Part shown: in pieces, positions 3,423 through 40,819 of the stretch | Numbering within the stretch: the stretch's first letter is position 1 | Layout: each line of letters opens with the position of its first letter | NCBI GenBank assembly: GCA_013360915.1 | Contig: JABWAT010000001.1 | Location: forward strand, 379,259-443,258 | Direction of reading: 5' to 3' | DNA from: Bacteroidota bacterium | Lineage (GTDB): Bacteria > Bacteroidota > JABWAT01 | Length of the DNA stretch: 64,000 nt | Notes under the pieces: generated by a model | What the model was told of the DNA's origin: nothing | Databases searched by the model: none | What the model saw: the letters and a program-made list of their open reading frames with translations, nothing else | Program-made: the position numbers and the translations under genes

Positions 3423-4385
3423 TTATTTACCCAATTTGAACTTAATGGGCATGGTGAACATGGTTTGCACAGGAACTCCACCCTGCATACCGGGTGTGTA
3501 ACGAACATTAAACAATGCATCCTGTGCAGCCTTATCCAGAGCAGGGTGAACCGACTTAAGAACTTCTGTATTAATCGGGGTACCATCTTTATCGATGTAA
3601 ACCCGGCACACGACTGTTCCTTCCACTTTCAGCATCATGGCGATTTCGGGATATTTCAGAATTTTATAGATTGCAGGTGGCCCGCCTTCTATCTCAGGAC
3701 TCACTTCTGTAACCTCATAAATTTTCGTATCGTCATTGATTGCTTCGAGTTCTTCCTGCTGAATAGCAGCAGTTTGTGTCTGTGCCTGAACAGGTGCGGC
3801 CGCTACTGGTGTCACAACCGGTGGTTGAACAACGGGTTGTGCCGGTGTTTCAACCGGTTTGCTGACAGGCTGTACAGGTTCCTGCTTAACGGCAGGAGCC
3901 TGGGCAACCGTCACAGCAGGTGTTTCCTTAACTGCGGGTGTGGTAACAGTGGGAGTATTTGAAACCGGTATGGCAGCCGGTTTTTCCTGAGGAGGAGCAG
4001 CAGGAACCACATTGTCGGCAAGGGCAATTGGTTTGGCCGCAGTCCCTTCACCAGCGGTCAGCGGAATGTAAAGCTTGGTGGTAAAATTGGGATTTACCCG
4101 CAATTGCTTGGCATATTCCGAATAACCCGATTTAGATGTCCGTATTGTATAGACATCAGGCTGAACGTTAACAAATGAAAAATTTCCGCCCGAATTACTT
4201 CTTGCAGAAAGTTTTTGCTGCTCACCAAGGTAGAGATACACCGTCACAAACGGGAGGCCGTTGTTCGTAGCCTGGTCAATGACTTTTCCGCTGATACGTC
4301 CATACTGTGTTTGCCCGGAAACGGGGGAAACCGCTACCACTGCAACCATCAGAAAACCAGCAAACCACAAAACCATCTTCTTCAT
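3423..4385 (-). CDS. Exported TonB C-terminal domain protein with carboxypeptidase-regulatory-like domain
   Basis: 320 aa from ATG 4385, which has GGAGG 5 nt upstream; an in-frame upstream start is less likely. Residues 1-24 look like a cleavable signal peptide (hydrophobic core, then SPVSG|QTQ). Residues 27-110 form a CarboxypepD_reg-like beta-sandwich (GRISGKVID, GLPFVTVYLY, NFSFVNVQPDVYTI). A Pro/Val/Ala-rich linker spans about 115-225 and a TonB-type C-terminal domain about 238-320 (YPEIAMMLKVEGTVVCRVYI, RYTPGMQGGVPV). It is the last gene after an ExbB and two ExbD genes and is the natural TonB partner of that motor. Classical TonB has an uncleaved membrane anchor; if the signal here is cleaved, the protein would be soluble in the periplasm. 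That is the odd point. Confidence 0.85.
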   Translation of the reverse strand: MKKMVLWFAGFLMVAVVAVSPVSGQTQYGRISGKVIDQATNNGLPFVTVYLYLGEQQKLSARSNSGGNFSFVNVQPDVYTIRTSKSGYSEYAKQLRVNPNFTTKLYIPLTAGEGTAAKPIALADNVVPAAPPQEKPAAIPVSNTPTVTTPAVKETPAVTVAQAPAVKQEPVQPVSKPVETPAQPVVQPPVVTPVAAAPVQAQTQTAAIQQEELEAINDDTKIYEVTEVSPEIEGGPPAIYKILKYPEIAMMLKVEGTVVCRVYIDKDGTPINTEVLKSVHPALDKAAQDALFNVRYTPGMQGGVPVQTMFTMPIKFKLGK

Positions 4386-4422
4386 TGAATCCTCCCGGGG
4401 TGTGAGTTCAGCCAATCAGAAA

Positions 4423-4839
4423 TTAATCTTCTGGCTTGGCTGAATAATTGATACGAAGTGCATCAGCATCCCGTAAACGTTGCTGGATGTCAGTTACGAT
4501 ACCCATCTTCTGCTCTTTATCCACACGCAACGATACGATTAACTGGGGGATTGCACGCCGTTTTTCAGAGAAAACCGGTACCAGCACGTCCAGGTCGTCC
4601 ACAATGGCATCATCAACCTGAATCTGGTCATTGTTTCCGACGAAGATGTAAGAAACAAACCGTTTTTTATCAATCTTTTCAATGGCCTTTGCATTCGGCA
4701 GAACAAACTGAACCAGAAGGGTGGTATCCCTCAAGGTGGTTGTCACCATGAAAAAGAACAAAAGCATGAAAATGATGTCGGGCATAGAGGCAGTTGGAAT
4801 TTCCTGCTTAACATTGGCAGATTTCTTCTGAAATTTCAT
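4423..4839 (-). CDS. ExbD/TolR family protein (module B, second copy)
   Basis: 138-aa single-pass inner membrane protein: a basic cytoplasmic N-terminus, one TM helix (about 19-37, MPDIIFMLLFFFMVTTTL) and a periplasmic domain. Asp21 is the conserved intramembrane carboxylate that carries protons in ExbD, TolR and MotB. The N-terminus (EIPTASMPD) aligns without gaps to that of the ExbD immediately upstream (EIPSASMAD), so the two are tandem paralogs. AAGGAG lies 5 nt before ATG 4839. Expected role: with the ExbB-like channel, to convert ion flow into movement of a periplasmic partner, probably the TonB-domain protein next door. Confidence 0.93.
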   Translation of the reverse strand: MKFQKKSANVKQEIPTASMPDIIFMLLFFFMVTTTLRDTTLLVQFVLPNAKAIEKIDKKRFVSYIFVGNNDQIQVDDAIVDDLDVLVPVFSEKRRAIPQLIVSLRVDKEQKMGIVTDIQQRLRDADALRINYSAKPED

Positions 4840-4848
4840 ACTGTCTCC

Positions 4849-5391
4849 TTATTTAACCCGCTCTGGTTCAGCAAAGGAAATCTTTTTGCCATATATGGCA
4901 GTAATCTGTTTTTTCTGATCATCACCAAGCTTTTCAAATGTGGTCCCGAATTTGGACCGTGCCTCTGCATCTCTGATTTCAGAGTAAGCGATGTTCAGCT
5001 CGTCATATACATCCATGAAGATGTTATAACTGGTTTCACGATCCACTTTTACAGAAATGAGAGCTTTATCGGGTCCTTCAGAAAAGTTTGGATCCGCTCC
5101 CCGGTTGGTGATATGCTTTTTGGCAATCTCACGAATCTGGGCGATAGAGGATTCCTCATTATTAACCAGCACCTGTCCTGCACTGTTCACCAGAATATTC
5201 ATGATATTCCGGGCTTTAACAGGAGGGGGTGGTTCATCCGTTGGAGGAGGCGGAAGCACCAATCCGATACCGGTATCAACGTCAATGGTGGTGGTCACCA
5301 TGAAGAAGATCAGCAGTAGGAAGGCGATATCAGCCATGGATGCGGATGGAATTTCCGGATCTGGCTTTTTTTTGCGTTTGATGTGTGGCAT
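4849..5391 (-). CDS. ExbD/TolR family protein (module B, first copy)
   Basis: 180-aa ExbD-like protein with basic N-terminus (KRKKK), a TM segment at about 19-37 ([18 protein letters not shown]) with conserved Asp21, a Pro-rich hinge just outside the membrane ([11 protein letters not shown]) and a periplasmic domain longer than usual. It lies between the ExbB-like gene and the second ExbD with gaps of 9-21 nt, so an operon is likely. The 40-residue C-terminal extension (KFGTTFEKL to PERVK) is absent from the neighbour and suggests different partners. Confidence 0.93.
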
Positions 5392-5412
5392 ACTGGTTAC
5401 CTGATGGTAAGA

Positions 5413-6105
5413 TTATTTACCGGAAACCTTTTTACCGCGCTGAATCATGACCAGGGAGTCAATGAGTTCGATGGAAGATTCTTCCATATCGATCACAATC
5501 CGGTCGATCTTGGATACAAAGTAGTTATAAAACACCTGAAGGATCATAGCCACAACCAGACCAAACAAGGTGGTCAAAAGAGCGACAGCAATACCACCAG
5601 CCACAACGTCAGGAGAAATGTCTTTTGCCGCCTTGATAGCATCAAATGCATCAACCATCCCTTGTACCGTTCCGGTAAACCCGAGCATCGGAGCAAGTGA
5701 AATCATGGTCGAAATCACAATCAGTCCTCTTTCAAGGAAACTCATCTCGATCTGGCCATAGGCAACGATTGCTTTTTCAGCGGCATCAATACCCTCTTCG
5801 GCGCGCAGGAGACCAGCCTGAAACACAGCGGCGATCGGACCACGGGTGTTGGCACATTTCTCTTCGGCAGCCTTGATTCCCCCTTCATCCAAAGCCTGTT
5901 TAACTTCAACAAGGAATTTTCTTGTGTTGATGGATGCACGGTTCAGCGTCCACAGCTTGGCAATGGCAACGGATAATCCAATGATGAGACATACAAGAAT
6001 AGGCCACATGAACAACCCACCTTCATTGAATTTTTGAATGATCCAATTCAGGTCGTAGGTAGGAGTTTGGGTGAGGTCCTGCAACAGAAGAAGGGAGAAT
6101 AGCAT
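5413..6105 (-). CDS. MotA/TolQ/ExbB proton channel family protein (module B)
   Basis: 230-aa inner membrane protein with the three TM helices of the family: TM1 about 31-52, TM2 about 128-152 with LGFTGTVQGMV, TM3 about 168-195 with GGIAVALLTTLFGL. The Thr/Gly-rich TM2 and TM3 form the proton path with the ExbD TM Asp. AAGGAA lies upstream of ATG 6105. It is the first gene of a four-gene run (ExbB, ExbD, ExbD, TonB), and the 217-nt gap before it has a promoter-like site at 6155-6185. Confidence 0.94.
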   Translation of the reverse strand: MLFSLLLLQDLTQTPTYDLNWIIQKFNEGGLFMWPILVCLIIGLSVAIAKLWTLNRASINTRKFLVEVKQALDEGGIKAAEEKCANTRGPIAAVFQAGLLRAEEGIDAAEKAIVAYGQIEMSFLERGLIVISTMISLAPMLGFTGTVQGMVDAFDAIKAAKDISPDVVAGGIAVALLTTLFGLVVAMILQVFYNYFVSKIDRIVIDMEESSIELIDSLVMIQRGKKVSGK

Positions 6106-6154
6106 TGGGAGATTCCTTTATGTTGAACTGATTATTTCACTTTAAAAGCGTTCG

Positions 6155-6185
6155 TAAAGGTAAAAGAAGACATTTTAAATGTCAA
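6155..6185 (-). promoter_or_regulatory. Promoter-like site upstream of module B
   Basis: Minus-strand TTGACA (6180-6185), 17-nt spacer, TACCTTTA (6155-6162), about 50 nt upstream of the exbB-like ATG at 6105. The downstream box resembles the Bacteroidota -7 element TAnnTTTG, and the same arrangement occurs upstream of the glutamate dehydrogenase at 28920. Found by eye only. Confidence 0.4.
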
Positions 6186-6322
6186 TCGGGTCATTTTACC
6201 CAAAAGACATCAAAACCGCCCTGTTTTCACAATAATACACCCCATTCCACCAAGTACAAAAGGCTTCAGGGTCTTTTAGTAAAAAACTAATCCTGAGTCT
6301 GATCTGAAGACCCGGCTTGTCC

Positions 6323-8104
6323 TTATTTATCGGGGTTCCAGGTACTTCTGATGTACAGTTCCCTTAGTTGCTTCTCGGCAACTCCAGAAGGGGCGCTATC
6401 CATCAGACTCTGCGCATTCGAATTTTTGGGAAACGCGATGACATCTCGGATGGAGGAAGATTGAGTCATGATCATGGCCAGCCGGTCCAATCCGAATGCA
6501 ATGCCGCCATGAGGCGGAGCTCCGTATTTGAAGGCATCCAGAAGAAAACCAAACTTCTCCTTTGCTTCTTCAGGGCCGATTCCCAACAATTCAAACATCT
6601 TGGATTGTAGCTCCGGCTTGAATATTCTGATGGAACCACCTGCAATTTCACTGCCATTAAGAACCAGATCGTATGCCTTTGCACGGATAGAGCCACTGTC
6701 TGTACCCATTTTGTCCATGTCTTCATTCCGGGGAGAGGTAAATGGATGGTGCATGGCCACCCACCGCTTCTCTTCCTCATCCCAATCCAACAATGGGAAA
6801 TTGGTAACCCAATGAAATGAGTAGGCCTTTTCATCGATCAGATTGAAATGCCGTCCCAGCTCCTGCCGGAGATTGCCCATGATGGTCATGTATTTATACC
6901 CGGCACCTGTACTCAGTAACAATTGATCACCGGCTGCCAGACCGAAAGTCCGGACCAGATTCGAAATTGCTTCAGGTGTCAGATGCTTGACGACCGGACC
7001 TTCAAGCTGTTCTCCCATACGGAAGAGAATCAATCCGGCGAGGCCCCCCTTTTTATAGCGGTCCACCATGTCATCATAGAGATTACGACTGAGGACCAGA
7101 GGCGCCGGGACTCTGATTCCACTGATCAGACTTCCCTCTTCCGACATGGAATCAAACACTTTGAATCCGGTCGGAGCGGTAAAACGGATCTCCTGAATCT
7201 TTAATGGATTCCGTAGATCGGGTTTATCGGAACCATAGACATGCATGGCTTCTTCAAAATCCATACGCGGGAAGGGGGTCTTCACATCCACATTCAGGAT
7301 TTCGCGAAACAGTTGTTTCACCATTCCTTCAGATACATTCTGTATATCTTCCTGATCCACAAATGCCATCTCGATATCGACCTGGGTGAACTCAGGCTGA
7401 CGGTCAGCCCGCAGATCTTCATCCCGGAAACATTTAACAATCTGAAAATACCGGTCAAATCCGCTGACCATCAGGATTTGCTTATACGTTTGAGGAGACT
7501 GCGGCAGAGCAAAAAACTTCCCCGGATTCACACGGGACGGAACCAGAAAATCTCTTGCTCCCTCAGGAGTGGACTTCATCAGAACCGGGGTTTCCACTTC
7601 AACAAACTGTTGCTTGTGGAAATAATCCCTGATGCTTTGGGTCATCTGGGATCGCAGAATAATTTTTTGCTGGAGGGCTTCTTTTCTCAGATCCAGAAAG
7701 CGATACTTGAGTCTCAGGTCTTCATTGACTTCTTCTGTTCCTTCTATCTGAAACGGAAGTGCCTGTGCTGCATTCAATATAGTAATTTCTGTAGCAACGA
7801 CTTCCACCAGACCTGTTTTCAGGTTCAGATTGCGACTGTTTTCGGGTCGTAACCGTACCGATCCGGTTACCTGGATGACCCATTCATTGCGTAATTCTTT
7901 GGCCTTTTCATAGACAGGCTTATTCTCGGGTTCAAAAACAACCTGGGTTTTTCCATACCGATCGCGGAGATCCACAAACAGAACCCCTCCGTGATCTCTC
8001 ACTCTGGCCGCCCACCCACTCAGGATGACCTTTTTACCAACTTGTGAGTCCGTCAGTTCCCCGCAGGAAAACTGGCGATAATGAGTAGTTAATTGCTCAG
8101 ACAT
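6323..8104 (-). CDS. aspS: Aspartyl-tRNA synthetase, bacterial type
   Basis: 593 aa, the usual length of bacterial AspRS. Class II enzyme charging tRNA-Asp. Visible: N-terminal anticodon-binding OB fold (GWAARVRDHGGVLFVDLRDR), motif 2 (FRDEDLRADRQPEFTQVD), the bacterial GAD insertion in the middle, and motif 3 near the end (GGIAFGLDRLAMIM). ATG 8104 is chosen because GAGGA precedes it by 6 nt; an in-frame ATG-like start at 8143 would lie inside the terminator hairpin at 8121-8152 and is rejected. The gene sits alone between the two Tol/Exb modules with a terminator upstream, so it is probably transcribed separately. Whether it is the discriminating or non-discriminating form cannot be told by eye. 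Confidence 0.96.
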   Translation of the reverse strand: MSEQLTTHYRQFSCGELTDSQVGKKVILSGWAARVRDHGGVLFVDLRDRYGKTQVVFEPENKPVYEKAKELRNEWVIQVTGSVRLRPENSRNLNLKTGLVEVVATEITILNAAQALPFQIEGTEEVNEDLRLKYRFLDLRKEALQQKIILRSQMTQSIRDYFHKQQFVEVETPVLMKSTPEGARDFLVPSRVNPGKFFALPQSPQTYKQILMVSGFDRYFQIVKCFRDEDLRADRQPEFTQVDIEMAFVDQEDIQNVSEGMVKQLFREILNVDVKTPFPRMDFEEAMHVYGSDKPDLRNPLKIQEIRFTAPTGFKVFDSMSEEGSLISGIRVPAPLVLSRNLYDDMVDRYKKGGLAGLILFRMGEQLEGPVVKHLTPEAISNLVRTFGLAAGDQLLLSTGAGYKYMTIMGNLRQELGRHFNLIDEKAYSFHWVTNFPLLDWDEEEKRWVAMHHPFTSPRNEDMDKMGTDSGSIRAKAYDLVLNGSEIAGGSIRIFKPELQSKMFELLGIGPEEAKEKFGFLLDAFKYGAPPHGGIAFGLDRLAMIMTQSSSIRDVIAFPKNSNAQSLMDSAPSGVAEKQLRELYIRSTWNPDK

Positions 8105-8120
8105 CTTGTCCTCATCAAAT

Positions 8121-8152
8121 AAAAAAAAACCAGGTTTAAACAAACCTGGTTT
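8121..8152 (-). terminator. Rho-independent terminator closing module A
   Basis: 11-bp perfect stem AAACCAGGTTT/AAACCTGGTTT (8127-8137, 8142-8152), loop AAAC, followed on the minus strand by at least six T. It lies 25 nt after the stop of the AgmX-like gene and immediately before aspS. Confidence 0.85.
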
Positions 8153-8176
8153 TTAAACCAAAACGGAAAGTAAAAA

Positions 8177-9283
8177 TTAATCTGCGAATACGTACGGTAT
8201 GTTCAGAACCTGAGGTTGTTTATCCGTTACCGTGCTGAACTGCCACAGACGAACCTTGTTGAGAATACAACGTTCAACATTGGCATTCTTCATGGTACTG
8301 GAAGCAATCCGGGGACCTACCACGCGACCGTCCGGTGAAATCCGTAATTCCACCACAATCTGTCCGCGAAGACTCGGATCTTTAACCTTTTCCTGTTCGT
8401 AGCAGGCCGTGATAGCACGTGAATGCTCATCAATCACACTGGTCAACTCATCCACTCCACGCGAGGAGGAACCAGATGATTTGATTTTTCCGGTGGAGAG
8501 ACTTGATTTGATGTTACCGCTGCGACCAAGAGCATCACCAACACCGGTTCCGGCTCCCAATCCGCGGGCAGCACCAACTGCACCCAGTTTTGCACCGACT
8601 GCTCCGCCACGTCCCACGTCTTCACGGGTAGCATTTCCAAAGCCCATGCCTTGCTGTCCGGCACCAGACTTCAGAATGGCCCCAAGGTCACCTGTACTGG
8701 TAGCAGAACTCAACACATCGGTAGCAGTTCCGGCTGAGGAAGCACGACCCGTACGGGACCGGCCGGCAAGGGCAGCAATCGCGGCACTTGCCTGTGCAGC
8801 AACATTGGCCTGGTACTGAGCCTTTGCAGCAGCAGCTGCTTCCGCACGTTGTTGTTTAAACTCTTCTGAAGTGGCTTCTTCGCGGGTTTTACCCTTGGTG
8901 GTCGCCTTTTCAGCAGCAGCCTCTTTCTTTTCTTCGGCCGCAACAACATTGTCGGTTTTGATTTCTTCCTTAGGGGTATCCAATTCAAGAGCAGCAGAAC
9001 GTTTCAGAATTTTTTGCATGAATGCCTGCTTGATCATTTCATTCACTGCAGATTGATCTGGAGGCTCGTAAGTAAGTAACATGGTAAACATGGCACCGTA
9101 AACAACCCCGAAGGTCGCTAACAGGATTCCTGCATACCTTTTGTCAATCCCTTCCCAGAATGTTTGTTTAAATTCATCCGGAAATGCGCGGCTTTGTGCA
9201 GCCATTACAGCTGTTGCCTTCGGATTAACCGCCTGCATTACTTCATTTGGTTGTGTCTGATCACCGCTTTTATGGTTTTTCAT
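8177..9283 (-). CDS. AgmX/PglI C-terminal domain protein (TonB-like linker of module A)
   Basis: 368 aa. Cytoplasmic N-terminus, single TM helix at about 51-71, then a charged Ala/Lys-rich stretch (about 95-165, probable coiled coil), a Gly/Ser-rich flexible region (about 175-275) and a C-terminal domain at 277-368. That domain (HSRAITACYEQ, GQIVVELRISPDGRV, CILNKVRLWQF, Cys294 and Cys339) matches the AgmX/PglI C-terminal domain, a TonB-like fold known from Myxococcus gliding proteins GltJ and GltG. It overlaps the preceding ExbD by one base (TGATG) and has GGAGGG upstream. Expected to be the rod that carries force from the TolQ/TolR-like motor across the periplasm. The lack of FHA or zinc-ribbon domains separates it from Myxococcus GltJ itself. 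Confidence 0.85.
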   Translation of the reverse strand: MKNHKSGDQTQPNEVMQAVNPKATAVMAAQSRAFPDEFKQTFWEGIDKRYAGILLATFGVVYGAMFTMLLTYEPPDQSAVNEMIKQAFMQKILKRSAALELDTPKEEIKTDNVVAAEEKKEAAAEKATTKGKTREEATSEEFKQQRAEAAAAAKAQYQANVAAQASAAIAALAGRSRTGRASSAGTATDVLSSATSTGDLGAILKSGAGQQGMGFGNATREDVGRGGAVGAKLGAVGAARGLGAGTGVGDALGRSGNIKSSLSTGKIKSSGSSSRGVDELTSVIDEHSRAITACYEQEKVKDPSLRGQIVVELRISPDGRVVGPRIASSTMKNANVERCILNKVRLWQFSTVTDKQPQVLNIPYVFAD

Positions 9284-9786
9284 CAGTTACCCTCCACAGT
9301 TATCAGCTTAATTTTGGTAAATCCTGCCTGCGAGGCAGTATACACAACCTTTATGAACGAGGTATAATCGAGACCTTTGTCACCCTGTATCAGGATTTCT
9401 CCAGTAAACAGGGGCTCACCATCCGGGCCATCACCTAAGTCAATTAATTCCTGTGCACGTGCATCAAGAATATCAAACAACTTTTTGATCATAAACCCAG
9501 TTTCAGGATCGACAGGCCCCAAATACTCTTCCGGAGCGGAAACATAGTCGTCATTGAATAGGAGACCGAGCTTAGAGACAGCAATAGTAGCTGTTTTTTT
9601 CGGTTTGTCCAGGTTAATGGATTCCGGCAAACGCAAACCCTCTGCTTCAGTAACCAGTGCACCTTCGGCAGAAAACTGGTTCAGCAGAAACAGAAGAATA
9701 ATTGTCATCGCATCCATAAGCGAGGTCAGAGAGACCCCACCTGAACTAAATCTGTGTTTTTTTCCCTTACTGGGTGCAAATGCCAT
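9283..9786 (-). CDS. ExbD/TolR family protein with conserved TM Asp (module A)
   Basis: 167-aa single-pass protein. The N-terminus MAFAPSKGKK is basic; the TM segment about 20-38 (LTSLMDAMTIILLFLLNQF) contains Asp25, the expected proton carrier. The periplasmic domain contains GEILIQGDKGLDYTSFIKVVYTA, the ExbD pattern in which a short strand (ILIQGD) precedes a helix. AGGAGA upstream of ATG 9786. The tandem neighbour at 9799-10389 shares the MAFxPSxxKK start but has Asn at the Asp25 position, so the two probably form an asymmetric pair. Confidence 0.92.
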   Translation of the reverse strand: MAFAPSKGKKHRFSSGGVSLTSLMDAMTIILLFLLNQFSAEGALVTEAEGLRLPESINLDKPKKTATIAVSKLGLLFNDDYVSAPEEYLGPVDPETGFMIKKLFDILDARAQELIDLGDGPDGEPLFTGEILIQGDKGLDYTSFIKVVYTASQAGFTKIKLITVEGN

Positions 9787-9798
9787 TGATCAGCTCTC

Positions 9799-10389
9799 CT
9801 AATTAATGTTTACACCCAAGGAGATGCTGGGAAATAAAACCAGCTCAATCTCTTTGCTTTGTTCATTGTATTTGGCTTTAACCGCATCCATGGTCTTGAT
9901 CAATACCTGATAAGGGATGGTGTTGGCAGCCGTAATCTGAATATTGAACTCATCTGCAAACTGGCCTTCGCCAATTTCTTTCTTCAGATCAGTCAGTTTG
10001 TTATTCAGTGCGGCGAGAGGCCAGTGTTTTTTAACATCCTGACCATCATAGACATCATATTCGCCCGGAGTTACCGGAATTGTAGCTGAATTGTTGGGAT
10101 CGGGTCCCTTTTCGATTCCGCGAATATTAGTCTGAATGGTATAACCATCATCCGTAACCAGTAGCTTCAGATCAAGCTTTTTCTGCTGCTCGGTGGGAGT
10201 GTTGGTTGCTCCCCCTCCCCCGCCACCCGAATCGGTTGGCAGGTTGATTTCGATTGTGCCAAGTTTAACGAACTCGGCACAGGACAGGAGCAATGGAATC
10301 AGACATACCATGAGGTTCATCACCACAATCATATCCGGTTCCTTGAACTCGTTATCCTGTTTTTTTCGTTGTGAAGGCTTAAATGCCAT
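9799..10389 (-). CDS. ExbD/TolR-like protein with Asn in place of the TM Asp (module A)
   Basis: 196 aa. N-terminus MAFKPSQRKK aligns gap-free with the downstream ExbD. The TM helix (about 20-37, MIVVMNLMVCLIPLLLS) has Asn25 exactly where the partner has Asp25; Asp19 is at the membrane edge and not an equivalent. A Gly-rich hinge (SGGGGGATN) follows, then a periplasmic domain ending FNIQITAANTIPYQVLIKTMDAV, the ExbD fold signature. Loss of the carboxylate suggests a structural subunit that does not itself carry protons, as inferred from known ExbD/TolR/MotB mechanisms. AAGAGG before ATG 10389. Confidence 0.85.
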   Translation of the reverse strand: MAFKPSQRKKQDNEFKEPDMIVVMNLMVCLIPLLLSCAEFVKLGTIEINLPTDSGGGGGGATNTPTEQQKKLDLKLLVTDDGYTIQTNIRGIEKGPDPNNSATIPVTPGEYDVYDGQDVKKHWPLAALNNKLTDLKKEIGEGQFADEFNIQITAANTIPYQVLIKTMDAVKAKYNEQSKEIELVLFPSISLGVNIN

Positions 10390-10453
10390 TTTAACCTCTT
10401 GTTATTAACTTTTACCTGCGTAATCGGGATTTGTTCCCGGTTAAGGATTCAGA

Positions 10454-11167
10454 TTAGTTAATTACGGGTTTGTAGCCAGTCAGAAGGTTAATCAGTTTTA
10501 CAGTGTGCTCATCAATCTCATCAATGATGGATTGGGTCTTCGCCTGAATAAGAACCACAAGTACGGTTAACGGGATTGCAGAGAAAAGACCCATCATCGT
10601 GGTACCCATGGCGGCCGAGATACCCTGAGCAAGATACTGTGATTTCTGAGCAGCCGGAATGGCCGTTCCACCCACAGCACCGAAAGCGATAATCAGACCA
10701 AAGATCGTACCGGCCAGACCGAGAAGAGTTGAAGCCGAAGCGATCATGACCAGATAACCGGTCCGGTTGGTCAGGCGGGGAATCACTTCAAGGGTTGCTT
10801 CATCAACTGCATTCTGAATGTCACGGAATTCCTTCGAGGTATCTGCGCGTTTCAGACCACGGAGGACGATGTAAGGAAGGGCCTTTTCCTTGGATTGCTC
10901 GGCAAGGGCAATGGCTTCCTTAATGTTGTTCGATTGAACATGCTGGCGGATGCGCTCCATGAATTTTCCAGCATTGATATTTGACCGGACATACACATAG
11001 TAGAAACGTTCAATGACGATTGCCATACCGATAACCATGAAGGTCAGAATGACCCACTGGAACCATGCAGAGGGGTCACCTGCCACAGCATTTCCGTTGG
11101 AATCAATGTGATCCCAGAATTTGAAGGAGTTAATAAAGGTATTAAGGAACAAGTCCAAAGCGTTCAT
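10454..11167 (-). CDS. MotA/TolQ/ExbB proton channel family protein (module A)
   Basis: 237 aa with TM1 about 36-57, TM2 about 138-162 (LLGLAGTIFGLIIAF) and TM3 about 182-207 (GISAAMGTTMMGLFSAIPLTVL); the Gly/Thr signatures of TolQ and ExbB are intact. The cytoplasmic loop between TM1 and TM2 holds the expected helical region. CGGAGA precedes ATG 11167. It is followed by two ExbD genes and an AgmX-like gene and preceded by three genes for exported proteins, so it is the motor stator of module A. It is clearly diverged from the 230-aa paralog of module B. Confidence 0.94.
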   Translation of the reverse strand: MNALDLFLNTFINSFKFWDHIDSNGNAVAGDPSAWFQWVILTFMVIGMAIVIERFYYVYVRSNINAGKFMERIRQHVQSNNIKEAIALAEQSKEKALPYIVLRGLKRADTSKEFRDIQNAVDEATLEVIPRLTNRTGYLVMIASASTLLGLAGTIFGLIIAFGAVGGTAIPAAQKSQYLAQGISAAMGTTMMGLFSAIPLTVLVVLIQAKTQSIIDEIDEHTVKLINLLTGYKPVIN

Positions 11168-11257
11168 TTGGTTTCTCCGTTTTTGGTTTGGTTAGAAAAT
11201 GATTAAGACTGGGTAAAGTTAAAGGGTGATTTGAAAAAATACAAACACCCCGGGGAT

Positions 11258-11584
11258 TCAATTCCGATTCCGTTTCAGCAGGACCTCGGTGTCAATTGAC
11301 AAGGGAAACTCACTGTCCTTGCGGATATAAAAGTCGGATTTAGGACGTTCTTTAACCTGATTGGATAATGATTCCACACTGGAGCTTGCCTGGGTGAAAT
11401 CAGGGCGAATCCGTTCGGGCACCAACTGAACCGTTGGCCGTCTGATTCTCGCACGGATTACCTGTGTACGGATGGTAATCACGGCCCCTTCACCACCTGC
11501 AGGTGCTGCCTGTGCCATGAGTTCAGACCAGGAGGATCCGGCAAGAACAAAAAACAGGATAATTAAGATAGTTATTGGTCTCAT
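11258..11584 (-). CDS. Small exported protein, unknown function
   Basis: 108 aa with a good signal peptide (about 1-24, hydrophobic ITILIILFFVLAG, then MAQA). The mature part is basic with many Arg and Val (VIRARIRRPTVQLVPERIRP), then a Ser-rich and Lys-rich tail; no TM helix. I do not recognise a family. Its start overlaps the stop of the 1780-aa TPR gene by 4 nt (ATGA) and has a strong site (GGAGGAGA), so it is translated with the giant protein. Position between the giant TPR protein and the motor suggests a small periplasmic component. Confidence 0.75.
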   Translation of the reverse strand: MRPITILIILFFVLAGSSWSELMAQAAPAGGEGAVITIRTQVIRARIRRPTVQLVPERIRPDFTQASSSVESLSNQVKERPKSDFYIRKDSEFPLSIDTEVLLKRNRN

Positions 11585-14500
11585 TTCGGTTCTCCTCCAC
11601 TTTTTTGTTCACCTTCCGGTTGCGGTGCCGGCTCGGTGGTTTGTGGCGCTGCTTCGGGTTCCTTGGGTTTGACTCCGGGCAGGTCGTTTTGTGACTGGAA
11701 CATGTTCAGTACCTTTTCAGGGGGTACATCCGGATAGTAGGTAACATTCACGAGAGCATACAGGTTTTTATTATAACTGTCTGTTGCATCGGTTTTGACC
11801 GCGAGAACGTTCTTTCCGCGGGTGAGGATCTTGCTGACATCCACAACCAGGGACTTGCCATCAGCGGAGGGCTCGCCCAGTGTTTCATCAATCGGGTTCT
11901 CATTCAGATAGATTTCGGCCTTCAGGTTTTTACCCACCACCAGAGTTGCCGTTTCAATGGCACCATCGATGGTCATGGTTTTCCTGAACAGAACCTTGTT
12001 GGGAACGGTTTGATTTTCGAATGCATCCGGTTGTTCGGCTACGCTGTTTTCAGGATAATCAAACCGGTTCTTCACCACAATGACGGGAGGCGCCGGCAAT
12101 TGAACCGGGGTGGCCAGCGATTGTACCTGATTGGTATCAGGCACCGTTTTCAGAGTAGAATCCTGTGTCACCTGAAGAAGTGAATCTGTAACCGGAAATT
12201 CATTCTCACCCTGAACCGACACGGTTGAATCGGTTGAAAGAGCCTCTGCAGGCTGTTCCATCACCTGTGCTGGCTCGGTATACGGCTGAGGAATGGTATC
12301 GGTATATACCGGTTCAGTGTTTTCTGCAGGCTGAACCAGATCTGTATCCGAAACAGACAGATGGAAATACCTGCTCATGCGGTTACCGGACTCATCCGTT
12401 TCTGACTCAAGTGGTGTTCCTTCATCAATGCGGTAGTACCAGACCGGTTGCATCACATAGGATTTCGGTCCGGACAGAAAATCGAAGAAATCTACCTGCA
12501 TGCCGGATGCAGAAATGGTCGGTTCAGCATTGAACCAGGTGGAATCATCCAGGGAAATCTGGAACCAGTTTTCCGGTATGGCTGTGGTCGCCCGCCAGGA
12601 ATGATCGGTTTCAAACACAAGGGATCCGCGAAGATCGATTTCACCAAGAAGTTTACCGTAGGTCTGAGGATCTACCGAGATCAGCCGGGTAATGATCTGG
12701 CCGGTCCACTGAGTAAATACTCCGTATTCATTCATGAAAAGGATACCGTTTTCGAGAATCGACAATCCGGTTACCTTAAGTGTGTTGATGATGTTATCAA
12801 TGGTAAAGGTTGCATCCAGATACCAATATTTATCCGGTTCTGCAATTGAAACCTGATCGTATTGCTTTCTGACGGGCAACAAGCGGCGCGATCTTTCCAG
12901 ATTCATGTCACCCGTTTTCAGTAGGAATTCGGTTGCGCGGTTTTCCACCTGCAGACGAAGATCCTTTCCGAGATTGTTGGCATCAACCACCTTCAAAGCG
13001 GTGGCAAATGAATTGATGGTGGTGGTCACATATTGATTATTGCTCTCAATGGCCACATTCATGATACTTTCCTGGTTAAGGATCTCGTCACCAAGAGGTT
13101 CTTCATTCACCTCTACCTTGGAACGGAAATTATCAAACAGATGATCAAACGCATTGATGGCATAGTTCACCAATTCAACATAGCGCGTCGCCTGCAAATC
13201 GGAAAGGTCGGTTATGGCTTGTCTCGACTCCTGAACCCAGTGGTTTTCAACTCCCCGTTCTGCAGACAGATCGATGTTTTTACGGTACAGTGAAATGGCA
13301 TCCGCAATATCAGGCGTTACGTCATCAATCAGCTGTGCACCAATCAGCAGGTATACGTTCGGGTCGGTCTGACTATCAAGCAGAGAGCGGTCGTTGATAA
13401 ACAGAAATACGACCTCATGCTGAGCTCTGGCTGCCCGGAACAGCATTTCTGATGTCTTTTCAGAAACAGTTGAGTCAAGTGAGGCTAGCAGTTTCAGTGT
13501 TGAATCAGGTACGACAATGTCATTGGTGGTAATAGAATCTTTGTTCTGCTCCAGAAGGGTATTCAGTGTGGACCCAAACTGTTTCAGGGAAGTATAGGTC
13601 TGTGCATAAATCTGATAGGCGGTTTCATAGAAACTCTTTGCATCATAATACACTTCAGACTGATACTTGATAAGATCTGCACCACGGTATCCTGCATCGG
13701 AGGCATTCCGCTCACCCACCTGACTGGACAGAATTTCCTGGGTCTTTCCAATATTATAGGTTGCCTCAAACGCCCGGTACAGACTTCCGCCCGGTTCCAG
13801 GCTCAGACCGCGGATTTCGATCTGATTGTTCCAGTAAGTTGTTTTTGCTGCTTCCTTTTTGTCCAGCGTAACCGAACTGTTGGCATAATCAATTTTGATA
13901 TCATCAAAGGCCCGGCGTAGTTCAAGACCGATCTTATAGAGGGACTCACCAGCAAAATAGGGACTTCCTGGCAATTTCTTTGCCTTCAGGTCACGGTTCC
14001 GGTTGGCTGCAGCCTGATACTCAACCTGAGCGCCGGTAAAATCCTGTTGTCTTTCGAGGTAATTACCGCGACGGTAAAAGGCCTCAACCGTCCTGAAATC
14101 ATCCGGGTATTGAGCCGCAAATTTTCCGTAGGCATCAAAGACACCCCGTTCATCCTTCAGGTCAGACTGCAGACCAATGGTCCCAAACAAGACTTCCGTT
14201 GCAAACGGACTCTTGGGAAATTTCTCCACATACAGTTCTGAAAGCCTGAAGGCTTCTTTCAGATCACGTGCCTTTTTGGCATCATCAAAGGCAAAATACA
14301 GGTACTGCTCGGCCAGTGTTTCTTCATTCTTACCGGCGAAGTAGTAATAGTTGCGCTCAGCCTGTTTAGATGACAGTGAAAAGGCACCCATTTCCTTGTA
14401 GTTAGCGTAGATGTTTTTATGGGCGTTATCAACCAGTTCCACCGATTTGGGGAATTTTTCAATCAAAAGATTGTACAGTTCGTTGGACCGGTTAAATTCT

Positions 14501-16923
14501 TTGATTTTGTCGAAGTTATCAGCTGCAAAATAAATGGCCTGATCGACTTCTTTATAATTAGGTGTTTCCTGATAGATACGGAACCATTGTTCAGCAGCTG
14601 CGAAATAATCCTTACGATCCTGCATGATAATGGCATACTGACCAATACTGTTTGACCAGACGCTCCAGGCATAATCCTTTTGTTTCTGGCTGGCATCCTT
14701 CATGTAGATCAGGGCACGAGCCAATTTTTCTGCAGAAGGATAGTCTTTAACCTGATAGTAACCGGTCATAAGGTCGGTCACATATCCAGGATTGACTTTC
14801 TTATCAGGGTAATATTTCTGAAGAATGACCTGCCAGTCGGCAACCGCATCGAGTTGATTCTTATTGAAATAAAGCAACGAGATGTTCTCAACATAGTCCT
14901 TTGTCTTCTGGATATGCGGGAACAACCTGGCGAAATTATCATAGGCTTCTATAAGCCGCTTTTCACCAGTGGTGAGCATGAGTGTATCCACATAGGCCAG
15001 GAATTTCAGGTCACGCAAGGTGGAATCGGCCACCATGGCCTGTGCACGGGACAATGAGGAAAGACCAATTTTGGGCGTGGTGGTTTCTTCCTGTTTAAAC
15101 TGATCCTGAGCAATAGATATGGCATTCAGAGCGGTTTCAAAGCGGTGATGCTCGGAAAACGGGTTTCTGGAAACCTCCAGATAGATCGGGTATGCTTCAG
15201 CCTGGCGGTTCAGACGCTGGTCAAGAACAAGGCCAAGGTAGTATCCGTTTTCATAAGCCACCGAATCGTAGCGGGAATAGAAATCAAAGTACTGAAAAAC
15301 AGTATTGGCATACCGGTTGTAATAAGACAATGCCTGTTCCTGGCTGGAAGTGATGCCTTCCCTGCTCTGAGATCCGTTAAAAGTTTCGGCATAGAACAGG
15401 TTGTGATCCATGTTATCAATGAAGTACTTCTGACTGGTGGAATCGACTTCAGTAAACATGGCTGCATTCAGATACCGGTCTACGATTCCCTTCACTGACT
15501 GATCTGCATCGGGTCCGTTTTGTTTATTAAACTTATCCAATTGCTGTTTGTACCAATCGGACCGGTAGTTGTACGTTTCCCAATACTTCAGACGTAACCC
15601 GTAAATTTCTTCACGCAAGGCAAGTTCTGCCATCCCCGTCAACGCATTCAGTTCCCGGGAACGAAGCTCGATAACCTTACCGGATAAACTGGCGGCTCTT
15701 TCTGATTGGGGAAACCGGTTAACGATGTATTCATAAACATAGATTTCGTCTTTTATTTCATCCACTTCTGAATAGGACAAACCCAGCCGTTCATAAACGT
15801 AGGGTTCATAGGCTTTAGGAGGATTGAAATTGCCGAAATATTGCACAAGACGATCCAGAACCTCACCGGTGCGCGGACTGCCCGATTTCTGTGAGTATTC
15901 CCGTTTGACAATATCCATGAAACAGATACCAATATACTGGGCCGCTTCATCGAGCATTTCGGTCTTTACGAAACCAGGCATAACCTGACCGTCAAACAAT
16001 TCTTTATTCTGCTGGATATCATCCATCAGGAATGTAAAGTAGGCAATGGCATCAGAGAAACTTCTCAGCTTATAGCTTACCCATGCCAACCGGTACAGGG
16101 ATTCCCCGAAACGACGGGAAGGAAACTCTGATTCTGCACTCAGTTCGAGCACCTTCTGGAAATGGCTCCGGGCCCGGCGCAAACGTGCATCATCGGAACT
16201 GTTAAAAAGAAACTCACCGATCAGCCAATTGGATTCTAGCACATAACGACTGTTTGGGTATTTACGTGTCAGTACCTCGAGGGTACGGATTCCCATTTCT
16301 GAGTTCTGCAACTCCCGTCCATAAATATAGGCCTTGTTATAAAGCGCATCCGGAACATATTTACTTTCGGGAATTTCATTGATCACATAGTCGTATAGCC
16401 AAATGACCTTGGAAAAATCCTTAACGGCCGGTTTCGGCTGTTCGGGTAACTCTGTGATTTCCTTCTTTTCAAATTGATCGAGCAGTCTGGCATAAGCATC
16501 CAGTTTTCGGTTGTACTCGGCATCATCCTCATAAAACTTGGTCTGAACCTTGTCATAGAGAATTTCTGCCTGACGCATGAGGATTTCATCGAGGATTTTT
16601 GACCGCTGAAAAATCTGAATGAAACGTTCATTGTTCTGATCGAGCAGAGCCGATAGACGCTTCTCCTCTTCTTCGGAAAGTTTTATCTTTTCCTGAGTCT
16701 TCTGAAGGATCAGTTCGATCTGAGGAAGGGTAAAGTTTTTGAAAATCCGGTCGGTTTCAGCCGATTTCGTTTTAGTGGTGATAATATCCTGATCGAGAGG
16801 GGTCACCACGATATGGCGACCTTTGACAATGGACGTATCCTGCCCGGAAACAGGACTGGCTACCACTGCAATCAGACATGCAGAAAGAAACAATCGATTG
16901 ATCCGGCTTCGATTTACTGTCAT
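11581..16923 (-). CDS. Giant exported TPR-repeat protein (1780 aa) of module A
   Basis: Signal peptide at 1-27 (cleavage VSG|QDTS), a charged helical segment (about 55-150), then many TPR-type helix pairs from about 165 to beyond 1000 (for example IWLYDYVINEIPESKYVPDA and YYRRGNYLE-like units, written here only as short parts). Around 1400-1500 and 1640-1740 the sequence becomes beta-rich; the later part (FRKTMTIDGAIETATLVVG, KAEIYLNENPID) resembles a jelly-roll/galactose-binding domain. Between them is a Thr/Pro/Gln-rich low-complexity linker, and the C-terminus is Pro/Glu-rich. No membrane helix after the signal, so periplasmic or outer-surface. It follows another exported TPR gene by 6 nt and overlaps the small exported gene. 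Role by context: scaffold or lever of the Tol/Exb-driven apparatus. No functional family recognised. Confidence 0.85.
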   Translation of the reverse strand: MTVNRSRINRLFLSACLIAVVASPVSGQDTSIVKGRHIVVTPLDQDIITTKTKSAETDRIFKNFTLPQIELILQKTQEKIKLSEEEEKRLSALLDQNNERFIQIFQRSKILDEILMRQAEILYDKVQTKFYEDDAEYNRKLDAYARLLDQFEKKEITELPEQPKPAVKDFSKVIWLYDYVINEIPESKYVPDALYNKAYIYGRELQNSEMGIRTLEVLTRKYPNSRYVLESNWLIGEFLFNSSDDARLRRARSHFQKVLELSAESEFPSRRFGESLYRLAWVSYKLRSFSDAIAYFTFLMDDIQQNKELFDGQVMPGFVKTEMLDEAAQYIGICFMDIVKREYSQKSGSPRTGEVLDRLVQYFGNFNPPKAYEPYVYERLGLSYSEVDEIKDEIYVYEYIVNRFPQSERAASLSGKVIELRSRELNALTGMAELALREEIYGLRLKYWETYNYRSDWYKQQLDKFNKQNGPDADQSVKGIVDRYLNAAMFTEVDSTSQKYFIDNMDHNLFYAETFNGSQSREGITSSQEQALSYYNRYANTVFQYFDFYSRYDSVAYENGYYLGLVLDQRLNRQAEAYPIYLEVSRNPFSEHHRFETALNAISIAQDQFKQEETTTPKIGLSSLSRAQAMVADSTLRDLKFLAYVDTLMLTTGEKRLIEAYDNFARLFPHIQKTKDYVENISLLYFNKNQLDAVADWQVILQKYYPDKKVNPGYVTDLMTGYYQVKDYPSAEKLARALIYMKDASQKQKDYAWSVWSNSIGQYAIIMQDRKDYFAAAEQWFRIYQETPNYKEVDQAIYFAADNFDKIKEFNRSNELYNLLIEKFPKSVELVDNAHKNIYANYKEMGAFSLSSKQAERNYYYFAGKNEETLAEQYLYFAFDDAKKARDLKEAFRLSELYVEKFPKSPFATEVLFGTIGLQSDLKDERGVFDAYGKFAAQYPDDFRTVEAFYRRGNYLERQQDFTGAQVEYQAAANRNRDLKAKKLPGSPYFAGESLYKIGLELRRAFDDIKIDYANSSVTLDKKEAAKTTYWNNQIEIRGLSLEPGGSLYRAFEATYNIGKTQEILSSQVGERNASDAGYRGADLIKYQSEVYYDAKSFYETAYQIYAQTYTSLKQFGSTLNTLLEQNKDSITTNDIVVPDSTLKLLASLDSTVSEKTSEMLFRAARAQHEVVFLFINDRSLLDSQTDPNVYLLIGAQLIDDVTPDIADAISLYRKNIDLSAERGVENHWVQESRQAITDLSDLQATRYVELVNYAINAFDHLFDNFRSKVEVNEEPLGDEILNQESIMNVAIESNNQYVTTTINSFATALKVVDANNLGKDLRLQVENRATEFLLKTGDMNLERSRRLLPVRKQYDQVSIAEPDKYWYLDATFTIDNIINTLKVTGLSILENGILFMNEYGVFTQWTGQIITRLISVDPQTYGKLLGEIDLRGSLVFETDHSWRATTAIPENWFQISLDDSTWFNAEPTISASGMQVDFFDFLSGPKSYVMQPVWYYRIDEGTPLESETDESGNRMSRYFHLSVSDTDLVQPAENTEPVYTDTIPQPYTEPAQVMEQPAEALSTDSTVSVQGENEFPVTDSLLQVTQDSTLKTVPDTNQVQSLATPVQLPAPPVIVVKNRFDYPENSVAEQPDAFENQTVPNKVLFRKTMTIDGAIETATLVVGKNLKAEIYLNENPIDETLGEPSADGKSLVVDVSKILTRGKNVLAVKTDATDSYNKNLYALVNVTYYPDVPPEKVLNMFQSQNDLPGVKPKEPEAAPQTTEPAPQPEGEQKSGGEPK

Positions 16924-16929
16924 AAGATG

Positions 16930-19389
16930 TTACTTACCCTTTTTTCCGGATGTACTTTTTTTCGTAGCCTTTGCATCTGCCTTCTTCGATTTGTCATCCT
17001 CGGGCTTTGTAGCCGGTGCAGGAGGAGCAGGTGGCGGATTCAGCCGGTCCATTAATTCCTTGGGAATGGGTTGAACGGACATCGGATCAAAATACACGCT
17101 ACGATAGTCGGTTAGTTTGGTTTTAAAATCGCTGTTAATGGAGTCGATTCGCTCGACAAAGAGTCGCTGAGATTCAATTTTTGCCAGATCGGACATGTAT
17201 CGCTCAAACTGATCTTTTTTCTCAGAAATGGCTCTCTTCAGTGCAGAGCGGATCTTGAGGTTTTCTTCATTCTCTGTCTTCCGACGGTCAAATTCACTGA
17301 ATAAAAGACTGGTCAGACCAAAGGCTGAAGCATCTCCCCATCGTTCGATTTCGGTCTGGGACCGGTAAAAGTCGGCTTCATAGAAAGAGACTTCCACTGC
17401 GTTGAACCGGTTTTTAACATCTCCGATCACCTCGGCCATGTAAGCAATGACGTCCCTTTTCATTGGTTCTTTATTCGATGAAACGGCACCACGAACTCTG
17501 GATTCAAGGTCACTGGCGCGGTTCACTTCAAGGGTGGCAACATCCCGCAGCATCCGATAGGAGTCTTTACTTGCATTCTCTGAAGACCGTAGGAGAATGG
17601 GGGCATGCTGGGCAAACAGGACAATATCCTTGCCGATTGGTTCGGCATAGGCGCGGTCAACAATTCCCTTAAGGGCTGTGATTGCGCTGTCTGCAAAAGT
17701 CACCATTTCACGCAGTCCGCGTTGACGGAGAGTGGCCTTTTGTTTATCCAATGACTCGATATCTGCTGTCAGCTCTTCAAGAATCTGGTCATTCAGCAAC
17801 CGGTTGTCCTTACGGAACTCAAGTCGGCTTGAAAGACCCAGTTTCTGGCTGGTGGTGTTCAACGATTCAATCATGGTGGTAACCGGGCCCAGAGAAGCCT
17901 GAGGAAGGTTTCTCGATTCGGCATAAACTTCCATGTTTACCCGCTGACGATTGATAATGTTCCTGTTTTTGTAGAAATCGGACAAAAACTGGTGTGCGAT
18001 CATTCCATTGATCACATAGTTGTAGCTGGTTTCGGAATTTTCGGTTTGGGAAGGGTTCTTGCGCTGGCGGATGTAACCTTCCAGAAAAACGGCCTGGTAA
18101 AGCAGTTCCTGATTGGTTACCTGATTGATGTAATTTTCCACTTTAAGAAGAGCGGTATTGTAATCGGCCTGCTGTAAATCAATCCAGGTTTCTGCCAGAA
18201 CCGCAGAAGAGTATTCGGGGTGAGTGATTTCAACCTGGTCAAAATAACTTTTACCGGTATCGAAATAGGTTTGAGGGGTAATGGTCACCTTTCTGGCGCC
18301 AACTGTTTCTTCAATCCGGAACTCGCCAGCCTTGATCATATTGACACCCTTGAGGTAATTGAGGTACCCCAACTGGAGGATGGCAGATGTTTTGAGTTGT
18401 TTCAAAGCCTTAGAGTCCCATGGCCAGACTGTTTCCCGCTCCACCCGGCCATAAAACCGGATGGCGTTATCAACATCATCGGTGATGGCATAGGTATTAC
18501 CAAGGACATAATTGGACATCATGTAGCCCGGATATTCCCGTGGCACACCAGAAAGGGTTGAAATGACCTTCTGATAGTCTTCCCGCTGGTGGTAGATGAC
18601 AGCCAGAAGCATCTGGATGTCATAGTAAACCGAATTCTGGGCATTAATAAGCCCTTTCAGCTTTTCCCAGTCCTCGAGGAGGGTTTCATTCTGTCCATAG
18701 ACGTAATGAATAAACAAAAGCCGGTAAATGGCATTGTTGGTAAAAGCTGAGGTGCCGTTGTATTGTTTCAGTACAATATTATAGTCTGCCCTGGCAGCCT
18801 GGTAGTGCCTGAGGGCGAAATTGGCCTCACCACGAAGGAAATACAGGTCATCCAATGATTTGTAGATCGGGGTAAAATCTGTAATTAGGTCATTGAGACC
18901 GAGAATAGCTACCCTGAAGTTTCCCGCATTGTAGTAACGCATAATCGCTTCTACCCGGTCGTTAAAGTAGGATTTCAACCGGTCGGGCGAGGCTCCTGTC
19001 ATCAGGATTTCCTTGTACCGCTGCAATTCTCTCGCTACGTTCTCAGTCTGTGCATACTCCAGAAACTGTTCATACAGTTCCTGAGTCTCAAACGTAAAGC
19101 GATATCCCTTCCCGGATCCGGAATAGGAATAGTCCCCGGGTTCAATCTTGGTGAATTGAAGGGATTTCCAGGCATCGCGGCTGAAATTTTTATCCTCTTT
19201 GATCCGATATTCCAATTCCCGGTAGGTAATATGGGCCATATCTGCCAGATAGATACTCCGGTTCAGGATCATATTGAAGTGAAAAACCGGGGGGTTTTTC
19301 ACGCTTCCCTTTAAAACTTCCTCAATTGTTTGTGCAGGAAGAAGGGAAGGGATTAACAAAAGGAGGAAAACTGCTTTTAATAGCTTCAT
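16930..19389 (-). CDS. Exported TPR-repeat protein (819 aa), first gene of module A
   Basis: Signal peptide at 1-19 (LLKAVFLLLLIPSLLPAQ), then TPR-like repeats through about 170-480 (DLYFLRGEANFALRHYQAA, YVLGNTYAITDDVDNAIRFY), a long helical or coiled-coil part (about 530-760) and a Pro-rich plus Lys-rich tail (about 780-819, ending TSGKKGK). It is translated from ATG 19389; the upstream 172-nt gap has a promoter-like pattern and the end of the trxB transcript. The stop is 6 nt before the giant TPR gene. Probably periplasmic; the basic tail could bind peptidoglycan or a membrane surface, which is speculation. No specific family recognised; Myxococcus GltE/GltC-type TPR proteins are the nearest analogy in role. 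Confidence 0.82.
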   Translation of the reverse strand: MKLLKAVFLLLLIPSLLPAQTIEEVLKGSVKNPPVFHFNMILNRSIYLADMAHITYRELEYRIKEDKNFSRDAWKSLQFTKIEPGDYSYSGSGKGYRFTFETQELYEQFLEYAQTENVARELQRYKEILMTGASPDRLKSYFNDRVEAIMRYYNAGNFRVAILGLNDLITDFTPIYKSLDDLYFLRGEANFALRHYQAARADYNIVLKQYNGTSAFTNNAIYRLLFIHYVYGQNETLLEDWEKLKGLINAQNSVYYDIQMLLAVIYHQREDYQKVISTLSGVPREYPGYMMSNYVLGNTYAITDDVDNAIRFYGRVERETVWPWDSKALKQLKTSAILQLGYLNYLKGVNMIKAGEFRIEETVGARKVTITPQTYFDTGKSYFDQVEITHPEYSSAVLAETWIDLQQADYNTALLKVENYINQVTNQELLYQAVFLEGYIRQRKNPSQTENSETSYNYVINGMIAHQFLSDFYKNRNIINRQRVNMEVYAESRNLPQASLGPVTTMIESLNTTSQKLGLSSRLEFRKDNRLLNDQILEELTADIESLDKQKATLRQRGLREMVTFADSAITALKGIVDRAYAEPIGKDIVLFAQHAPILLRSSENASKDSYRMLRDVATLEVNRASDLESRVRGAVSSNKEPMKRDVIAYMAEVIGDVKNRFNAVEVSFYEADFYRSQTEIERWGDASAFGLTSLLFSEFDRRKTENEENLKIRSALKRAISEKKDQFERYMSDLAKIESQRLFVERIDSINSDFKTKLTDYRSVYFDPMSVQPIPKELMDRLNPPPAPPAPATKPEDDKSKKADAKATKKSTSGKKGK

Positions 19390-20485: not shown

Positions 20486-20496
20486 GGTACTTCCCT

Positions 20497-20820
20497 TCAG
20501 TTCAGGTGCACATTGACCTTGTCGGTCAGCATTTTCTTGGGCATGGCACCGACAATCTGTTCAACCACCTGTCCGTTTTTAAAAACGAGCAGAGTTGGAA
20601 TCGACCGGATTCCGAATTTGGTGGCCGTCATCGGATTCACATCCACATCGACTTTTGCGATTTTAAGTTTGCCTGCATATTCCGGGGCCATTTCTTCGAG
20701 AATAGGGGCAATCATCCGGCAAGGACCGCACCAGGCAGCCCAGAAATCGACCAGGACTGGTTCGTTTGACTGGATGACTTCCTTTTCAAAGGTGGCATCG
20801 GTGACAGTAACGGGTTTCAT
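20497..20820 (-). CDS. trxA: Thioredoxin
   Basis: 107 aa with the WCGPC active site (Trp30, Cys31, Cys34) and the cis-Pro region ([13 protein letters not shown]). Cytoplasmic disulfide reductant for ribonucleotide reductase and other enzymes. AAGGAG 5 nt before ATG 20820. It lies between dnaE (10 nt upstream) and trxB. Confidence 0.98.
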
Positions 20821-20830
20821 TGAATTCTCC

Positions 20831-40722: not shown

Positions 40723-40819
40723 AGTGTTTCTCCGGGAAATACTAAAAAATTTTAAGTATAATTGGCTAATAATACAGCTAAATTCATGCTTTTTCAAATC
40801 GGGTCCACTCTTCTGTGCT
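40723..40819. promoter_or_regulatory. Divergent AT-rich control region between the YCF48 lipoprotein and rqcH
   Basis: 97 nt between the GTG at 40722 (minus) and ATG 40820 (plus). AT-rich with several TA-rich tracts (AAAAAATTTTAAGTATAATT around 40743-40762), suitable for back-to-back promoters. No clear -33/-7 pair is assigned. Confidence 0.3.

Follow-up and report, generated by a model that had tools for sequence, protein, structure and literature searches.

The Agl-Glt core complex (Luciano 2011 / Wartel 2013) is a machine of the cell envelope driven by the proton-motive force (PMF); Myxococcus and Bdellovibrio use a machine of this type to move on surfaces. Its published core, aglRQS with gltC, gltD, gltE and gltG, is of unknown function and was described from Proteobacteria and Fibrobacter (PMC3169522, PMC3858216); according to a 2011 study, Bacteroidetes do not conserve it (PMC3169522). 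The Agl motors carry slime and spore-coat polymer along the cell surface, and a role as a basal transport machine has been suggested for the core (PMC3858216). We analyzed a stretch of 64,000 nucleotides (the window; contig JABWAT010000001.1, positions 379,259 to 443,258) from a Bacteroidota bacterium (GCA_013360915.1), whose genome comprises 3.65 Mb in 51 contigs. The window carries two sets of Tol/Exb motor genes on its minus strand, module A (8177–19389) and module B (3423–6105), with aspS (6323–8143, minus strand) between them. We think it reasonably probable that module A belongs to the Agl-Glt core complexes as their Bacteroidota branch and serves to move outer-membrane or surface cargo directionally, and that module B is an unrelated neighbor. 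All genes of both modules were confirmed at their coordinates, and the domain searches agree with the inventory of a first-pass annotation: one ExbB and two ExbD genes per module, all on the same strand, accompanied in module A by an AgmX/PglI protein, a small exported protein and two large exported TPR proteins.

The ExbB gene of module A (10454–11167, minus strand, as are all module genes described below) encodes a MotA/TolQ/ExbB protein (PF01618, 4e-20), the predicted subunit of the motor pentamer. The class to which the window belongs is represented by four genomes of a single family, f1 (the window genome G000 with G001, G002 and G003). A tree of 35 sequences joins the f1 ExbB and Bdellovibrionota AglR in one clade (support 99/97) and leaves outside it module B, the third motor of the genome, TolQ and ExbB of E. 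coli, and the motors of related cassettes from families f5, f26 and f49. The AglR reference sequences of this tree are those of Bdellovibrionota. Approximately unbiased (AU) tests, added to deal with several long branches, reject a single clade of the f1 and f5/f26/f49 motors (p 0.0016) and the grouping of f1 with module B (p 0.015). A Bdellovibrionota AglR clade without f1 is not rejected (p 0.17), and f1 is therefore placed in the same clade as AglR but is not proven to be nested in it. The closest AglR relatives (44–45%) are found in the Bdellovibrionota loci L122 and L125–L127. When named genomes were scanned with the module A ExbB, only one relative was found outside f1, in the Bdellovibrionales glt cluster L074 (37%), which NCBIfam models confirm as Glt (GltG 1e-42, GltC 2e-28, CglF 4e-7, CglD-like adhesin 1e-11). 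Comparable gene sets were read at further Bdellovibrionota loci. One of these clusters, L130, matches GltC (2e-54), GltE (1e-13) and CglF (4e-12), and its order, OMP (outer-membrane protein)-GltC-GltD-GltE-small-GltG-AglR-ExbD-ExbD, is close to that of module A.

The larger exported TPR protein (11581–16923, 1780 amino acids) is a homolog of GltD. Kinship with GltD, GltC, GltG and CglF was assessed by profile-profile alignment with hhalign against Bdellovibrionota, using reversed, shuffled or TPR controls. The alignment with GltD extends over 825 profile columns with an E value of 2.9e-28 (reversed control, 0.24) and persists at 4e-16 with the three f1 sequences alone, while comparisons with other TPR proteins give about 1e-10 at best. 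A sequence search of the PDB returned no relative of this protein. The AlphaFold model of residues 1340–1780 (mean pLDDT, predicted local distance difference test, 63) is composed of two folded blocks with a disordered, low-pLDDT linker between them (residues 161–298 of the model). Its Foldseek matches are all enzymes of the glycoside hydrolase family 2 (GH2)/rhamnosidase type (best E 2e-4), with TM-scores near 0.15, low values that we ascribe to the disordered linker, and the NCBIfam rhamnosidase model NF041573 covers the same part at 6e-4. We read this region (11719–12627) as a galactose-binding-like jelly roll split by the linker, in which sugar binding is only putative. A hidden Markov model of the second block (residues 1638–1735) found no match in Bdellovibrionota GltD. 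In f26 orthologs of GltD (L060, L064), a BON or OmpA domain is inserted in the C-terminal linker.

The last gene of module A (8177–9283) encodes a GltG-like protein with a transmembrane segment, a Gly-rich linker and an AgmX/PglI C-terminal domain. It scores over the cut-off of NF033768 (4e-23) and aligns with Bdellovibrionota GltG at 2.2e-22 (hhalign), mainly in the tail. The ExbB tree and the GltD and GltG profile matches thus bear out the kinship with the Myxococcus Agl/Glt machine that had been proposed for module A. The description of the system as undescribed has to be given up, since the core of aglRQS and gltC/D/E/G is already in print (PMC3169522, PMC3858216). As judged from its sequences, module A is not categorically new: it is an Agl-Glt core complex with an altered motor, in a phylum stated not to conserve it, and we found no report of an Agl-Glt system in Bacteroidota in the open-access literature. 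Two other proteins with AgmX tails are encoded away from any motor gene (L025:5227–5961 and L026:7298–8599), one of them with two tandem AgmX domains. The AgmX tail of module A also weakly resembles TonB_C (2e-5), which, with the ExbB and ExbD homology, raises the question of whether module A energizes import through outer-membrane receptors as TonB systems do. This we consider very unlikely: no receptor gene belongs to the cassette, GltD and another large TPR protein are conserved in it, and its ExbB belongs phylogenetically with AglR rather than with ExbB.

Beside the AglR-type ExbB lie two ExbD/TolR genes that differ at the proton-binding position. ExbD1 (9799–10389, 196 amino acids; PF02472, 9e-10) carries Asn25 (codon 10315–10317) and ExbD2 (9283–9786, 167 amino acids; PF02472, 9e-11) carries Asp25 (codon 9712–9714). 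In the comparison of 19 Bdellovibrionota sets with the four f1 members, in which positions were aligned to Asp25 of E. coli ExbD, Asn replaces Asp in ExbD1 of all four f1 members. The first ExbD of Bdellovibrionota has Ala or Ser instead of Asp in 7 of the 19 sets, and the second ExbD keeps Asp in all 23 sets (19/19 in Bdellovibrionota). Mapped on the ExbB tree, this one-sided loss requires at least three changes. ExbD2 is related (34%) to a Bdellovibrionales ExbD of a glt cluster. Judged by length and by the Asp, ExbD1 would correspond to AglS (196 versus 194 residues) and ExbD2 to AglQ (167 versus 162), in an order reverse to that of aglRQS; the comparison with the M. xanthus proteins is one of lengths. 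In M. xanthus, the AglQ substitution D28N abolishes function (PMC3858216); reviews predict the Asp in both AglQ and AglS, whose pairing is unknown (PMC9389320), and whether the two form a heterodimer is an open question in the literature (PMC9389320, PMC9120999). An ExbD1-ExbD2 heterodimer is the simplest reading of these sequences, because only one of the two ExbD proteins could carry protons, which is hard to fit with homodimers of both. The one-sided loss of the Asp bears directly on the AglQ/AglS question, which can thereby be put to the test in laboratory strains of M. xanthus or Bdellovibrio.

The intergenic gaps of module A range from -4 to 90 bp, and it is therefore likely transcribed as a single unit. 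Its order, trxB-TPR819-TPR1780-small-ExbB-ExbD-ExbD-AgmX protein-aspS, is identical in G001 and G003; in G002 the cluster is spread over two contigs, both halves of which match it. The upstream flank, trxB-trxA-dnaE (19562–24268, minus strand), is conserved, and aspS flanks the other side in all three relatives. Strong matches to the profile of the 1780-residue protein (E < 1e-130) occur in 15 genomes of a 395-genome sample of the phylum, distributed among the four families f1, f5, f26 and f49, the last three of which are probably Ignavibacteria-type lineages. Weaker matches throughout the phylum (E 1e-4 to 1e-14) proved to be generic TPR or glycosidase domains rather than the cassette, and a search of plasmids for relatives found none. 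Where readable, the order in f5, f26 and f49 is TPR819-ExbB-ExbD-ExbD-AgmX-TPR1780-small, followed in some cassettes by another TPR gene and a gene for a NamZ exo-N-acetylmuramidase. The neighborhood survey thus found the TPR genes kept beside the motor genes in all four families, for which reason we assign them to the motor; the first-pass annotation had named their lack of conservation there as a ground for rejecting its proposal.

The f5, f26 and f49 cassettes share with module A an orthologous 819-type TPR protein, a 1780-type GltD, the small protein and a GltG-like protein, and several also adjoin trxB; they differ from it in gene order and in having a TolQ-like rather than an AglR-like ExbB. 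The same GltD/GltG/TPR/small cassette under a TolQ-like motor was read in L024, L058 and L060–L070, i.e. the motor has been exchanged. Such an exchange between AglR-type and TolQ-type motors under one GltD/GltG cassette offers a natural test of force-transducer modularity. A thioredoxin association was also observed: trxB-trxA (19562–20820) adjoin module A, and in the Bdellovibrionota sub-clade most akin to module A trxA lies just upstream of aglR in five loci (L122, L123 and L125–L127), directly in three and with one small gene between in two, so that the association of thioredoxin with the machine spans two phyla. The tail of GltG has two conserved Cys residues.

The FHA domain and MglA had been reported as missing partners. 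FHA is indeed absent from the AgmX protein and MglA from the window, but MglA is encoded on another contig. PF00025 alone scores this protein weakly (1.7e-6), and its identity was settled by a PDB sequence search (M. xanthus MglA 2e-73, Thermus MglA 1e-70); it has the YTVPGQ stretch. An MglB-type roadblock gene (PF03259, 3e-8) precedes it, within an operon-like row CheA-CheB-CheW-CheW-receiver/DUF4388-roadblock-MglA (L162:2–9104). The pair of MglA with a roadblock partner known from gliding machines is thus present elsewhere in the genome; some genomes lacking Glt also encode MglA, and published surveys find it more widespread than Glt (PMC3441718). None of the three PF01618 matches of the genome is a flagellar MotA. 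The PilT family has a single match, a GspE/PilB-like ATPase that scores below the PilT cut-off and is encoded in a Gsp/Pil-like operon together with a secretin and a GspF/PilC-like protein.

With these features in hand, the main rival can be weighed, namely that the cassette maintains the envelope as a Tol-Pal-like device: as cells grow and divide it would pull or tether the outer membrane to the wall, and it would have no role in surface movement. Few Tol-Pal loci can be recognized in Bacteroidetes, where other systems joining outer membrane and peptidoglycan are expected (PMC12204202); the OmpA or BON domains of the f26 GltD orthologs, which we read as peptidoglycan-binding, and the NamZ gene that ends the f5 clusters would suit such a role, as would the setting of the locus among the housekeeping genes trxB-trxA-dnaE and aspS. 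The motor of module A, however, is AglR-like and not TolQ-like, the genome has the MglA chemosensory operon, module A has no TolB, Pal or TolA gene, and TolB and Pal are absent from all clusters read, though they were not searched genome-wide. Envelope maintenance appears to us rather unlikely, though a serious contender.

Several observations weigh against an Agl-Glt core complex with a transport output. The match of the AgmX protein to the NCBIfam GltG model NF033760 (4e-29) is far under the equivalog cut-off of 650 bits, and no FHA domain was found in that protein. The exported 819-residue TPR protein (16930–19389), conserved in the four families, is GltC-like by position only: its hhalign score with Bdellovibrionota GltC (3.7e-10) is not clearly above those of the TPR controls, which reach 5e-8, the NCBIfam GltC model does not match it, and its fold model (pLDDT 62) is a generic TPR superhelix, so that it is at most a candidate GltC. 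The small exported protein (11258–11584, 108 amino acids), kept in the cassette, holds the position of GltF/CglF. Its full-length match to CglF (2.9e-6) is owed to the signal peptide, the mature protein scoring 0.06, within the shuffled controls, and the match was dropped as evidence because it vanishes once signal peptides are removed. No separate GltE-type gene was found in the f1 clusters, nor were GltF/CglF, GltA, B, H, I, J, K or an adhesin found beside the cassette, a genome-wide search not having been made. MglA also serves type IV pili, and a pilus or type II-like system could be its alternative client here, since secretin, GspE/PilB-type and GspF/PilC-like genes are present. Non-gliding bacteria, moreover, also possess core complexes, and M. 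xanthus needs more than the core to glide (PMC3169522). The window lineage itself is an uncultured metagenome-assembled genome with no known phenotype.

Module B consists of an ExbB (5413–6105; PF01618, 3e-28), two ExbD proteins that both have the Asp (4849–5391, PF02472 2e-20, and 4423–4839, PF02472 3.5e-13) and a TonB_C protein with a CarboxypepD_reg domain (3423–4415; PF03544 4e-19, PF13620 1e-12), all encoded by adjacent genes as in TonB-ExbB-ExbD systems. Modules A and B had been proposed to form one machine with two motors, a proposal prompted by their common strand and the presence of aspS alone between them in the window genome. Beyond aspS, module B lies within about 8 kb of module A in two relatives but about 34 kb away in the third, and in the window as in all three relatives it is followed by its own DUF2400-crp-proS block. 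No B-like set adjoins the cassette in f5 or f26, where the remaining ExbB gene lies far away. About a dozen TonB_C matches in the window genome need an energizer. The dual-motor machine is scarcely credible in view of this synteny and content, and module B is, on its gene content and neighborhood, an ordinary TonB-ExbB-ExbD-ExbD set, a separate neighbor that takes no part in the module A machine. The genome holds only three PF01618 genes, all on the same contig and each with two ExbD genes. The third set (L017:5448–7315, at about 331–333 kb of G000 C1, about 47 kb outside the window) is preceded by a small lipoprotein-like gene, adjoins ComEC and is nearest to the f5/f26 cassette motor. A cyclic nucleotide monophosphate-binding protein (1589–2482) adjoins module B, and a protein with CHASE2 and adenylate/guanylate cyclase domains is encoded at 60489–63251. 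A 960-residue protein full of YCF48/BNR/sortilin-type repeats (37915–40797) is probably a secreted β-propeller.

For module A as an Agl-Glt core complex, the following mechanism may be envisaged. The ExbB pentamer would surround the ExbD1-ExbD2 heterodimer, and proton flow through ExbD2 alone would drive the motor. By way of the GltG-like protein, force would cross the cell wall and reach the scaffold of exported TPR proteins, where the galactose-binding-like domain of GltD may hold a glycan or an outer-membrane partner. The output would be directional movement of outer-membrane or surface cargo, as surface transport or gliding, which we infer to be the most likely function, steered perhaps by the MglA/roadblock/chemosensory operon. 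A bolder proposal goes further: that in a deep lineage of Bacteroidota an MglA-steered Agl-Glt machine, independent of type IX/GldLM, propels the cells or their surface polymers, with a 5:2 motor built on an obligate ExbD heterodimer in which only one subunit carries protons, giving half the usual protonation steps per turn. We regard this as quite unlikely.

Among described systems, the Bdellovibrionota glt clusters (L074, L112, L130) resemble module A in having the closest AglR, in the gene order of L130 and in the one-sided loss of the ExbD Asp; they differ from it in including outer-membrane β-barrel genes, GltC and CglF, and genes for a CglD-type adhesin and GltJ-like proteins are often adjacent. 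Compared with the Agl-Glt/Nfs core complex, module A stands apart by its occurrence in Bacteroidota, a GltG without FHA, the lack of a separate GltE, the galactose-binding-like domain at the C-terminus of GltD and a first ExbD without the proton-binding Asp. It shares with that complex the AglR-type ExbB, the two ExbD proteins, the GltG-like AgmX protein, the GltD TPR protein and the clustering of exported proteins, and brings the Agl-Glt family into Bacteroidota, whose known gliding motor is a different one.

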